The notes under the pieces: model-generated
The model's database searches: none
Told to the model about the DNA's origin: nothing
Seen by the model: the letters and a program-made list of their open reading frames with translations, nothing else
DNA from: Candidatus Aminicenantota bacterium
Lineage (GTDB): Bacteria > Acidobacteriota > Aminicenantia > Aminicenantales > JAFGBC01
Assembly: GCA_022867325.1 (NCBI GenBank)
Contig: JALHUR010000005.1
Coordinates: 1 to 32,158, forward strand
Length of the DNA stretch: 32,158 nt
Direction of reading: 5' to 3'
Made by a program: the position numbers and the translations under genes
In this document: positions 5,160 through 12,220 of the stretch, in pieces
Layout: every line of letters starts with the position of its first letter
How positions within the stretch are numbered: the stretch's first letter is position 1

Positions 5160-5322
5160 GCTTTCCTTGCTATTCCCGATTCGTCCCGCATCCGGAATTC
5201 CGAAACGTCCGTAAAGAGCCTTGACATTTCGCGGGTCGCCAAGAGCTTGCTCCCCGGACATAAAGATCCGGATCTATCAAAGCAAAATATAGAGCAAGTC
5301 CCATGCCATTTTTTAAGTTGAC

Positions 5323-5430
5323 CCATTCGCCGACGCCAAGCCCCGCCTTTCATGGCGGGGATGAGAAGCGAGGCTCAGGGTTAATCCTTTACAAGCCCCG
5401 GCCTTCAGGCCGGGGAGTCGAGGATTTGAC
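5323..5430 (+). mobile_element. Non-autonomous palindromic IS200/IS605-like element (PATE/MITE), short 108-bp form, copy 2
   Basis: Flanked at left by target-like TTGAC (5318-5322) and ends in TTGAC (5426-5430). Left hairpin CCCCGCC-TTTCAT-GGCGGGG (5341-5360), right hairpin CCCCGGCC-TTCA-GGCCGGGG (5396-5415). Same ends as copy 3. Confidence 0.8.
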
Positions 5431-5454
5431 TCGGAGGCCCGTCCTCCCTATAAT
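5426..5454 (+). promoter_or_regulatory. carAB promoter: TTGACT-N17-TATAAT
   Basis: TTGACT at 5426-5431, 17-nt spacer, perfect TATAAT at 5449-5454, just upstream of carA. Confidence 0.75.
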
Positions 5455-5480: not shown

Positions 5481-6545
5481 ATGAATAGACGGCGCGCCAG
5501 CCTGGTCCTCGAGGACGGACACGTCTTCGAGGGCGAGGTATTCGGCGAGGCGCGCCCGGCGGCCGGAGAGGTCGTCTTCAACACCGGGATGGCCGGGTAT
5601 CCCGAAAGCCTGACCGACCCGAGCTACTCGGGACAAATCCTCGTCCTCACCTACCCCCTGATCGGCAACTACGGCGTTCCGCCCGGGACCGGCCCCGAAA
5701 GCCTGGACGGGCCTTTCGAGTCGGGCCGGGTCCAAGTCGCCGGCCTGATCGTTTCCTCCCTGTGCCCCGCGCCCAGCCATTGGTCCTCGACCCGCACCCT
5801 GGACGCCTGGCTCCGCGAAGAGAACGTCGCCGGCATCCAGGGCATTCCCACCCGGACCCTGACCAAGATCCTGCGCGAGAAAGGGACCATGCTCGGGAAG
5901 ATCGTCCTCCCCGGACGGGACACGGATTTCTTCGACCCTGACAAGATCAACCTCGTCGAGCGCGTTTCCACGAAAAAGGTCCTATCCTACGGATCGGGCC
6001 GCAAGAGGATCGCCCTTCTCGACTGCGGCGCCAAGAACAATATCATCCGCTGCCTGGTCAACCGGGGCGTCACGGTGCTCCGTGTTCCCTGGGATCACGA
6101 CCTCGCCTCCCTCGACTACGACGGCCTTGTCATCTCGAACGGACCCGGAAATCCCAAAATGTGCGGCCGGGCGGTCGAGGAAGCCCGCAAGGCCATGGCC
6201 CGGGGCAAGCCTATCTTCGGCATCTGCCTGGGAAACCAGATCCTCGCCCTGGCCGCCGGCCTCGACACCTATAAATTGAAATACGGCCACCGCTCCCAGA
6301 ACCAGCCTTGCCTGGACACGCGGACCGGCCGCTGTCCGATCACCAGCCAGAACCACGGCTACGCCGTCAAGCCCGAGCTCGGCCCCGACTGGGAGGCCTG
6401 GTTTGTGAACGCCAACGACGGAACGAACGAGGGCATCCGCCACAAGCGGCTTCCCTTCCGGGCCGTCCAGTTCCACCCCGAGGGCGCGCCGGGGCCCCGC
6501 GACACAGAGTATCTATTCGACGAATTCCTGGAGGCCGTCAAGTGA
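5481..6545 (+). CDS. carA: Carbamoyl-phosphate synthase small (glutaminase) subunit
   Basis: LVLEDGHVFEGEVFGE..GEVVFNTGMAGYPESLTDPSYSGQILVLTYPLIGNYGV, GICLGNQILALA, FHPEGAPGPRDTEYLF. Confidence 0.95.
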   Translation: MNRRRASLVLEDGHVFEGEVFGEARPAAGEVVFNTGMAGYPESLTDPSYSGQILVLTYPLIGNYGVPPGTGPESLDGPFESGRVQVAGLIVSSLCPAPSHWSSTRTLDAWLREENVAGIQGIPTRTLTKILREKGTMLGKIVLPGRDTDFFDPDKINLVERVSTKKVLSYGSGRKRIALLDCGAKNNIIRCLVNRGVTVLRVPWDHDLASLDYDGLVISNGPGNPKMCGRAVEEARKAMARGKPIFGICLGNQILALAAGLDTYKLKYGHRSQNQPCLDTRTGRCPITSQNHGYAVKPELGPDWEAWFVNANDGTNEGIRHKRLPFRAVQFHPEGAPGPRDTEYLFDEFLEAVK

Positions 6546-9500
6546 AGGTCCTCCTGCTTGGGAGCGGTGCCCTCAAGATCGGCGAGGCGGGCGAGTTCGA
6601 TTATTCCGGATCCCAAGCCCTCAAGGCGCTCAAGGAGGAGGGCGTCAAGACCGTCCTCGTCAACCCCAACATCGCCACCATCCAGACCGGCCGCGAATTC
6701 GCCGACCGCATTTATTTCCTCCCCGTCAACCGCGAGTTCGTGGAGCGGATCATCAGGCGCGAGAAGCCCGACGGGATCCTGCTTGGGTTCGGCGGCCAGA
6801 CCGCCCTCAACTGCGGCGTGAGCCTGGAGGGAGTCCTCGATCGGCACAAAGTCCGCGTTCTGGTAACTCCGCTCAAGACGATCAAGGAGACCGAGGACCG
6901 GGCCTTGTTTGTCGCCAAGCTGGCCGAGATCGGGGTTCTGACGCCGCGCGGCGTCGTCGTGACTTCGGTCAAGCGCGGGATGGCGGCGGCGTCCTCCTTG
7001 GGTTTTCCGCTCATGGTCCGCGTTTCCTACGACCTGGGCGGACGCGGCTCGGGCGTCGTCCGGGACTTGGCCGAGCTCCAGATCAAACTCGAGCGGGCTT
7101 TCGCCTTCTCCAAAAGGGTCCTTCTCGAGGAGTACCTCCACGGCTGGAAGGAGATCGAGTACGAGGTCGTCCGGGACGGCCGGGACAACTGCCTGACCGT
7201 CTGCAACATGGAGAACCTCGACCCGATGGGTTTCCATACCGGCGAGAGCGCGGTCGTTGCTCCCACTCAGACGCTGACGAACTTCGAGTACCACGAGCTG
7301 CGCCGGATCGCCATCCAGGTCGTCCGCCACCTGGGGGTGGTCGGCGAGTGCAACATCCAGTTCGCCCTCGACCCCTACCGCTGGGACTACCGGGTGATCG
7401 AGGTCAACGCGCGCCTGTCGCGGAGCTCGGCCCTGGCCTCGAAGGCGACCGCCTATCCGCTGGCCTACGTGGCGGCCAAGCTCGCTTTAGGCAAGACGCT
7501 CCCCGAGCTCAAGAATTCCGTCACCGGCGTCACGACGACCTGTTTCGAGCCCGCCCTCGACTACATCGTCTGCAAGATTCCGCGCTGGGACCTCCAGAAA
7601 TTCCGCCGGGTCGAATCGCGGATCGGCTCCGAGATGAAGAGCGTCGGCGAAGTCATGGGGATCGGCCGGAGCTTCGAGGAGGCCTTCCAGAAGGCCTTCC
7701 GCATGCTCGAGATCGGGGTCGACGGTTTCGTCTCCGACTTCAAGCTAGGGCCGCTCGCCGATGAGCTAAGGACCGACAAGCGATTCTTCGCCATCGCCAA
7801 GGCGCTGCGGCTCGGCTGGCCGGTCTCCAAGCTCCGCCGGATCACGGGAATCGATCCCTGGTTCCTGGAGCGGATGAAAGGCCTGGTCGGGATGGAGGAA
7901 AGGCTGCGGCAGAAACGCCCGCCCCGGCCCCTCCTCCTCCAAGCCAAACGGGCCGGCTTCTCGGACGCGCGGATCGCGGCCCTGGCCGGGCGGAAAGAAG
8001 CGTCTGTGCGCGCCCTTCGCAAGAAGTGGGGGATCGTCCCCGCCGTCAAGCAGATGGACACGCTGGCCGCCGAGTACCCGGCCCGGACGAATTACCTCTA
8101 CCTGACCTACCACGAGACCGAGGACGACGTCGCTTTCGGCGAGCGGGGCGTGCTCGTCCTCGGCTCCGGGCCCTACCGGATCGGCTCCTCGGTCGAGTTC
8201 GACTGGTGCTCGGTCAGCTGCGTCCGGTCGCTGGCCGCCCAGGGGCGCAAGACCATCGTCCTCAACTCGAATCCGGAGACGGTCTCGACCGACTACGATA
8301 TGTCCGACCGCCTTTACTTCGAGGAGATGACCCTGGAGCGGGTTCTCGACGTCTGCGACAAGGAGCGGCCCGACGGGGTCGTCGTCTCGATGGGCGGCCA
8401 GACCCCCAACAACCTGGCCGTCCCGCTGGCCCGGAACGGCGTCAGGATCTTGGGGACGGCGCCTTCGGACATCGTCCGGGCCGAGGACAGGAATAAATTC
8501 TCGGCCCTGCTCGACCGGCACGGCGTCGAGCAGCCCGAGTGGAAGGATCTCTCCTCGCTCCGCTCGGCCCGCGCTTTCGCCCGCGCGATCGGGTTCCCGG
8601 TCCTGATCCGGCCCAGCTTCGTTCTGAGCGGATCGGCCATGTCGGTCGCTTTCGACGAGAGCGGCATGGAGCGTTTCCTGGCCAAGGCCGGAAGTTTTTC
8701 CCCCGGGCAGTCCGTCATCATCACCAAGTTCATCGAGGGCGCCAAGGAGATCGAGTTCGACGGGGTCGCCGCCCAGGGCGAGCTCCTCTGCTACGCGATC
8801 GGAGAGCACATCGAAAATGCCGGCGTCCACTCGGGTGACGCGACCATCATCCTGCCCGCCCAGCGCATCCACGTCCAGGCCCACCGCGAGGTCCGGCTCA
8901 TCGCCAAGACGATCGCCCGCGCCCTCCGGATCACCGGCCCCTTCAACATCCAATTCATCGCCAAGGACGACCGGATCAAGGTCATCGAGTGCAACCTGCG
9001 GGCGTCCCGTACCTTCCCCTTCGTCTCCAAGACCTACGGGGTCGACTTCATCGACATCGCGACGAGGGCCATGCTCGGGGATTCGACCGGCCCCGTCCAT
9101 AAGTCCCTGTTCGAAACGGACGCCATCGCCATCAAGGCCCCCCAATTCTCCTTCTCCCGGCTCAAGAAGGCGGACCCGATCCTGACGGTCGAGATGGCCT
9201 CGACCGGCGAGGTCGCCTGCTTCGGACGGAGCGTCCATGAGGCCTTCCTCAAGGCCATCGTCGCCACCGGCTTCCGCATCCCGCGCCGGTCGGTTTTCGT
9301 TTCGATCAAAGGGGACGTCAACCGGGTCCGCTCCCTCGACTGGATCAGGGCCCTGGCGGCGCTCGGGTTCGAGATGACGGCGACCGAGCACACGGCCGAT
9401 TTCCTGCGGCGGAACGGGATCGCGGCCGAACGCCTCTTCAAGATCCACGAGAGCCGGGAGCCCAACGTTCGGACCCGGCTTCAGGGCCGGCGGATCGACC

Positions 9501-9685
9501 TCGTCATCAATATCCCCTTCTCCTACGACCGGATCGAGTTCGACGACTCCTACGAGATCAGGCGCATGGCGGTCGACTTCGGCGTGCCGCTCATCACGAA
9601 CATCCAGCTCGCGCGGCTGCTGGCCGAGGCCCTGGCCGCCAAGCCCGAGCTCGAGGTCCGCGCCTGGGACGAGTATCTGGGATAA
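6542..9685 (+). CDS. carB: Carbamoyl-phosphate synthase large subunit (GTG start overlapping carA stop)
   Basis: [34 protein letters not shown]..., duplicated ATP-grasp halves, second half [22 protein letters not shown], C-terminal MGS-like domain. The ORF caller start at 6308 is too far upstream; GTG at 6542 starts the conserved N-terminus. Confidence 0.95.
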   Translation: [1047 protein letters not shown]

Positions 9686-11227: not shown

Positions 11228-11257
11228 TACTCATGAACCGGAAACGGTTCATGAGTA
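11228..11257 (+). repeat. Perfect inverted repeat: 13-bp stem, GAAA loop, inside copy 3
   Basis: TACTCATGAACCG-GAAA-CGGTTCATGAGTA. Confidence 0.9.
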
Positions 11258-11262
11258 CAGGC

Positions 11263-11289
11263 GCTCCAACGGACGTAAGTCCGTGGAGC
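11263..11289 (+). repeat. Inverted repeat with GTAA loop inside copy 3 (11 bp with one bulged A)
   Basis: GCTCCA-a-CGGAC-GTAA-GTCCG-TGGAGC. Confidence 0.85.
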
Positions 11290-11321
11290 TTCGGGGCGGG
11301 GACGAGAAGCGACACTTTTGT

Positions 11322-11353
11322 ACTCAGCCCCTTTAGAGGGGATGGGGCTGAGT
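11322..11353 (+). repeat. Inverted repeat, 10-bp perfect stem, 12-nt loop, inside copy 3
   Basis: ACTCAGCCCC-TTTAGAGGGGAT-GGGGCTGAGT. Confidence 0.9.
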
Positions 11354-12220
11354 GGGCTCAGGGTTAACCCCGAACAAGCCCCGGCATTCATGCCGGGGAG
11401 TCGAGGGGTTGACTACCTCAAGATCATGGATTGGGTCATCCGGGGATTCGCCTATGTTTTCACCCGGCTGATGAGGATCAGCGGGGCCGAATCCCTCTCG
11501 ACTTCGGCCAATATTTTCGTGGGAGTTGAATCGGCCCTCGTCGTCCAACCCTACCTGGCGGGCATGACCCGCTCCGAGCTCACCACCATCCTGACCGCGG
11601 GGATGGCGACGATCGCCTCCACGGTTCTGGCCATGTACGTCATCATGCTGCAGAGCGTGCTCCCGACGATCGCGGGGCATCTCGTCTCGGCCTCTTTCCT
11701 GGCCGCGCCGGCCACGCTGGTCATGTCCAAGCTCATCATCCCCGAGACGGGGCGTCCGGAAACCCTGGGCCTCAACATCAAGCCGTATTCCGAGCGCGAG
11801 GACAACCTGATCATGGCCATCATCAACGGCGCCAACGCGGGGCTGCGTTTGCTGGGCGGAATCGTCGCCCTCCTCCTCGCCTTCCTGGGGCTGCTGGCCC
11901 TCCTCGACCTCATCCTGGGCTGGGCCGGGGGCGGAGTCAACCACCTTTTCGGCTGGAACGTGACCTGGTCGATCAAGACGCTTCTCGGCTATGTCTTCTA
12001 CCCGTTCACCCTCATCCTCGGCGTCGCGCCGTCGGACGCCATGGCGGTCGCCCGGCTCATCGGCGAACGAACGGTCAGGACCGAGGTCGTCGCCTACCAG
12101 GATCTGGCCAAGCTCCTGGCCGCGACCCTGGCCTGCCTGATGACGGCCGCCGTGGCCGGCGCCTTCGCCACCAGCGGCTCCGTCCTTCTCGGTAGACTCT
12201 GGCCATAAGGCTCGCAAGAC

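Follow-up and report, generated by a model that had tools for sequence, protein, structure and literature searches.

Element inserted in the carAB promoter

The window (the whole 32,158-nt stretch of DNA analysed, which is one entire contig) carries on its forward strand carA, encoding the small chain of carbamoyl-phosphate synthase (5481–6545; Pfam PF00117 and PF00988), and carB, encoding the large chain (6542–9685; assigned by Pfam, with the start given by a simple gene caller). Ahead of carA, on the same strand, lies the promoter TTGACT-N17-TATAAT (5426–5454), composed of TTGACT at 5426–5431, a 17-nt spacer at 5432–5448, and TATAAT at 5449–5454. It is an 11/12 sigma-70-like match and the sole one in the region, where shuffled sequences gave an expectation of 0.1. 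The first five bases of this promoter belong to a 108-nt non-autonomous mobile element (5323–5430, forward strand), recognised through its repeat family, and the remainder is native.

To the left of the element stands the target pentanucleotide TTGAC (5318–5322), the former -35 core, and the element terminates in a TTGAC of its own (5426–5430), which is now the -35 core. Between them, all on the forward strand, are a left hairpin CCCCGCC...GGCGGGG (5341–5360), predicted from its fold and from pair counts across copies, a central GGGTTAATCCT (5378–5388), and a right hairpin CCCCGGCCT..AGGCCGGGG (5396–5415). Within the central segment, GGGTTAA is pairable with the left TTGACCC and AATCCT with the right AGGATT, with pair counts taken over 36 copies; the segment may have a role as a guide. 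The sequence-only reading had placed the left TTGAC, the element, its right end, and the -10 box at exactly these coordinates. Its further claim that removing the element yields the same promoter was borne out at carA, as excision of 5323–5430 in silico retained TTGACT-N17-TATAAT ahead of the gene.

A second, composite copy of the element was found at 11250–11413, with its right-end TTGAC at 11409–11413; a likely ATG follows after about 10 nt, and no -10 box is present at 16–18 nt. The window also starts (1–37) within an element right end, a TTTCAC variant. The same sequence is found at the end of contig C334, indicating that the assembly breaks at this repeat. An Rfam search of the window gave no match.

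Anatomy of the repeat family

A genome search identified 40 scored copies of the element in the window's genome (G000), and the right-end pattern gave 159 genome matches vs 1 for the reversed control pattern. The family was also present in G056, G051, and G046, which represent another genus of the order, and a single copy was found in G001, the sister genome from the same genus as G000. The family alignment spans the base after the left TTGAC through the right-end TTGAC, and a typical copy measures 108 nt, although some composite forms are longer. From left to right, the element consists of CCGTTCGCCGACGC, hairpin 1, a central GGGTYAAyCC, hairpin 2, GTCGA, and then GGGGTTGAC. Palindromes are thereby found near both ends, and terminal inverted repeats are absent. 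The left target was exactly TTGAC in 53 of 82 copies, with 65–80 of 82 agreeing at each position, and the sequence further upstream was random.

Across copies, hairpin 2 (the right hairpin at carAB) showed a double change from C-G to A-T at one pair. The central GTYAA, located 5′ of the right hairpin, was pairable with the terminal TTGAC in 35–36 of 36 copies, in columns that hardly vary. Because most paired columns are near-invariant, the structural evidence for the predicted hairpins and pairing is moderate.

Each insertion creates a new TTGAC at its right end, and copies therefore stack head to tail: in head-to-tail and nested copies at individual loci (L-numbers) such as L290, L297 (G056), and L301 (G051), the TTGAC that ends one copy has served as the target for the following one. 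None of the copies read was a transposase-bearing version. We considered right ends that lacked a nearby left end as candidates for autonomous copies, and they proved to be truncated, at contig edges, or composite.

Several derivatives and neighbouring repeats were also observed. At L109 (G000:C353, near 1482–1532), a derivative of about 50 bp consists of two outward-facing right ends that form a palindrome, with TTGACA-N18-TATATT on both sides ahead of divergent genes, so that one palindrome supplies two -35 boxes; a similar palindrome occurs at L117. The first ~100 nt after the right end were similar at L094, L101, and L109 (G000), L260 (G051), and L274 (G056), reading TTGACA...GATATATT...GTTAGGAGGGGAGATTCAT with a -10 box and a Shine-Dalgarno-like stretch. 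This common stretch may be either a dispersed leader repeat that is often hit or part of a longer mobile unit. Another repeat, AAAGTGTAGGTTTGACCCCGA with its inverse, recurs beside element copies at L027, L033, L050, L061, and L110 and seems to be used by the element as a target.

Uninterrupted promoters in related genomes

At eight occupied loci besides carA, uninterrupted relatives carry TTGAC at the insertion point. These loci are rnpB, a rubrerythrin-like gene, rpmH, rplU, a tsaC-like gene, an XRE regulator, a response regulator, and an SDR gene; the last three of these were named by eye from their translations, and the remaining genes were scanned where possible. TTGAC occurs once at the junction of the empty sites, which shows that the target is not duplicated. 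These eight uninterrupted promoters agree with the earlier proposal that target, right end, and -35 are the same sequence and that insertion consequently re-supplies the -35.

In G001, the rnpB promoter was read on two contigs, as GATTGACGGCCCGCCCTCCCAGGCTGTATAAG on the one where the orthologous upstream gene is also present and as GATTGACAGGCCGCCCGCCAGGCTGTATAAG on the second, vs AATTGAC[element]AGGCCGCGGGCTAACCGGTATAAG before the full RNase P RNA in G000. The two rnpB gene starts with similar promoters in G001 (L254 and L258, on C55 and C83) represent either two copies or a mixed bin. For the rubrerythrin-like gene, the promoter has 16-nt spacing in both genomes and reads TTTTTTGACAGACGGCGGAGGATGGCTATAAT in G001 vs CTTTGAC[element]AGACGGTCCGGATCGGATATAAT in G000. 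The comparison set for the other genus comprised seven genomes of the G056/G051 genus, six of which were searched for the element without a match at these sites. All seven have an uninterrupted rpmH promoter, CCTTGACAGGC...TTCGGGTAACATAC, and the corresponding sequence in G056 is CCTTGAC[element]AGGCTGGCGGCCTTCGGGTAACATAC. Uninterrupted promoters were likewise found for rplU in seven genomes, the XRE regulator in six, the response regulator in four, the SDR gene in about five, and the tsaC-like gene in one. The region upstream of mscL was too diverged for an interpretable empty promoter, and at L094 (an ETF gene) the relative L257 aligns within the gene and offers no usable promoter alignment.

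For carAB, the comparison with close relatives was only partly possible. The congeneric G001 gave no match to carA, and the contig search elsewhere returned only relatives near 60% identity. Among relatives from the order, the carA promoters were mostly TTGxxx-N17-TATAxx: in 22 of 30, a TTG-type -35 was followed at 16–18 nt, nearly always 17, by a TATA-type -10. The sequence-only reading had made its case depend on relatives carrying TTGAC at this position, a condition that did not overturn it: TTGACC/T-N17-TATAAx precedes carA in five relatives from the order.

Spacing between right ends and -10 boxes

We scored -10 boxes over 103 right ends, requiring TA...T and at least four of six matching positions. 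A -10 box occurred at a spacing of 17 in 11 cases and of 18 in 10, and other spacings gave 0–4. At 16–18 nt, 22 right ends had a -10 box vs 4.5 ± 2.0 in shuffles, a comparison with random expectation that the sequence-only reading had proposed. Of these 22 right ends, 21 had a co-directional gene 19–233 nt downstream, and none was inside a gene. The rule left uncounted three loci (L006, L028, and L072) with TATAAA or TATAAG at 17 nt. No -10 box was recognised at 16–18 nt for about three quarters of the right ends that were read.

A model for insertion into -35 boxes

The insertion at carAB is confirmed, and the pattern across the family is real and general. The target, ends, empty sites, spacing, and distribution described above are direct observations, and we consider it highly probable that they reflect an IS200/IS605 (PATE-like) repeat that lands in promoters and rebuilds the -35, with selection sparing the intact core promoters. 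According to this model, the element inserts directly 3′ of TTGAC, preferring A or T as the next base and making no target duplication, and its right end finishes with TTGAC. As TTGAC[A/T] outside genes is very often a sigma-70-type -35 in these genomes, a good share of intergenic insertions would fall inside -35 boxes. The right end would then give the downstream promoter a new -35 core with the spacing to the native -10 unchanged, and the old TTGAC and all upstream DNA would be shifted away by the length of the element. With the core promoter kept, insertions could persist even ahead of essential genes, and those in genes would mostly be lost. Transposition probably proceeds through single-stranded DNA, catalysed by a Y1 (HUH) enzyme supplied in trans. 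That copies persist upstream of essential genes suggests that the rebuilt promoters are active after insertion, and the insertions may alter or rewire regulation.

The sequence-only reading described the element as replacing everything upstream of the core hexamers. This part has to be amended, since the upstream DNA is displaced and not deleted: at both rpmH and the XRE gene, conserved upstream motifs are still present beyond the left end of the element. In G056, AGAGTCAACGCGC, which lies upstream of the rpmH -35 in relatives, is retained left of the element, at a distance increased by about 110 nt. For the XRE gene, nested copies have moved a conserved TTGTCAA and a T-tract to a distance of more than 300 nt. 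A more far-reaching reading, which we regard as possible and rather doubtful, is that the repeat has repeatedly captured housekeeping -35s and cut them off from upstream control (UP elements and activator or operator sites), giving insulated core promoters that share the same hairpin DNA upstream and could revert by precise excision. It would apply to about a fifth of the copies read, and so to perhaps a few tens of promoters in the genome.

Free target sites and alternative explanations

As a control for the occupied sites, we collected free target sites from a 247-kb sample of G000, of which 8% is intergenic according to a home-made gene caller checked only against the obvious genes of the window. 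Insertions avoided genes: sites inside genes accounted for 5 of 83 occupied vs 58 of 95 free sites (P = 1e-15). T or A was favoured after TTGAC, also among intergenic sites (P = 0.0007).

One alternative is that the element creates new promoters by bringing a -35 to chance -10 boxes, with insertions selected for switching genes on. Outward -35 motifs at IS ends that form fusion promoters are well known (PMC9330008), and the occupied copies are commonly oriented toward the downstream gene (69 same, 20 opposite). However, at eight sites the element-free relatives already have the same promoter with TTGAC in the same place, and free TTGACW sites (where W is A or T) are oriented in this way as well, with 34 of 36 pointing at a co-directional gene. 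The new-promoter explanation is thus contradicted at the tested sites and could hold for others, and we judge it very unlikely as a general account.

Active targeting, in which the transposition machinery would recognise promoters or open complexes beyond TTGAC itself, could be suspected from the copies ahead of rnpB, rpmH, and rplU, genes that are probably highly transcribed, and from G056, G051, and G046, where a -10 box was present for 13 of 23 right ends read. In G000, to which the free-site control applies, a -10 box followed 22 of 78 occupied intergenic TTGACW sites vs 16 of 37 free ones (Fisher P = 0.14), a difference in the direction opposite to enrichment. These proportions speak against a special, promoter-seeking mode of insertion, and we consider active targeting highly improbable. 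Since a free intergenic TTGACW is no less often part of a promoter than an occupied one, targeting can be explained without promoter sensing, and the simplest account of the promoter location is the identity of target and -35 combined with the loss of harmful insertions. The probability that an ordinary repeat has its TTGAC end close to a -10 by coincidence, conceivable in that TTGAC is short and the repeat frequent, is close to nil, as this explanation is refuted for the family by the spacing peak over 103 copies, the shuffled expectation, and the conserved empty promoters in relatives.

Candidate mobilising enzymes

Neither an autonomous copy nor an enzyme sharing the element ends was found in the assembly, which is 92% complete and in 498 contigs. 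G000 encodes one IS200-type TnpA and three RAYT-like proteins, the latter all below the NCBIfam cut-off. The TnpA (L048, G000:C497) was rejected as the mobiliser, since it has hairpins of its own in the CCCCGCGGC-TTGC style and its ends differ from those of the element family. The RAYT-like genes had no element flanks except for one truncated copy. Searches for TnpB (PF07282) gave no match in G000, G056, G051, or G046, while the control genomes did match, and a Y1 search in G051 and G046, both of which carry element copies, also gave no match.

Implications

A transposon would be expected either to disrupt a promoter or to introduce one. For the element described here, the target site and the element end both equal the core of the promoter box most common in bacteria, which makes insertion into a -35 close to self-repairing. 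This is a simple rule by which a repeat could become highly abundant in a gene-dense genome, and such self-repair would account for copies lying directly ahead of rnpB, rpmH, rplU, and carAB. The occupied and empty sites also form a natural before-and-after set of promoters, with related genomes as controls, that bears on the importance of sequences upstream of the -35.

Comparison with known systems

IS200/IS605-type elements are marked by insertion 3′ of a fixed site, absence of target duplication, and subterminal hairpins (PMC8612924, PMC7290912). The present element would be best described as a non-autonomous IS200/IS605-like (PATE-like) family, because it inserts 3′ of a fixed pentanucleotide without duplication and has hairpins near its ends and no terminal inverted repeats. 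PATEs are transposase-free derivatives of IS605-type elements known from Haloquadratum walsbyi (PMC3119063) and Halanaerobium (PMC7290912). Like them, the element is short, lacks a transposase, has near-terminal palindromes without terminal inverted repeats or target duplication, occurs in many copies, and was probably moved in trans. Unlike PATEs, its target and right end equal the -35 core, tens of its copies lie in promoters, and no parent transposon with matching ends was found. In our literature search, which was not exhaustive, no IS200/IS605 element was reported to regenerate a -35.

Within the IS200/IS605 family, ISDra2 inserts 3′ of TTGAT and IS608 3′ of TTAC, in both cases without duplication (PMC8612924). 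The element shares with these the 3′ insertion at a fixed penta- or tetranucleotide, the lack of duplication, and the hairpins at both ends, whereas it differs in having neither tnpA nor tnpB, in its TTGAC target, and in that no TnpB was detected in the genome. REPs are defined by a GTAG-type tetranucleotide 5′ of a palindrome, inverted pairs, and RAYT (TnpA-REP) proteins (PMC8266576). The high copy number, intergenic location, and palindromic structure of the element, as well as the RAYT-like genes in the genome, are reminiscent of this system. We rejected membership of it, as the element has no GTAG, no inverted pairs apart from the two palindromic derivatives, and a fixed TTGAC target.

Correia elements (CREE) of Neisseria have terminal repeats, duplicate TA, and carry whole promoters (PMC9330008, PMC10969869). 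They resemble the element in being high-copy miniature elements near genes that affect promoters and whose target is like a promoter box (TA/TATA, similar to a -10), but the element described here uses the -35 and brings the -35 alone. As in the fusion promoters formed by IS911, IS2, IS256, and others (PMC9330008), the -35 comes from the element and the -10 from the flank. In contrast to those cases, a native -35 pre-existed at the sites described here, and the insertion restores a promoter rather than creating one.
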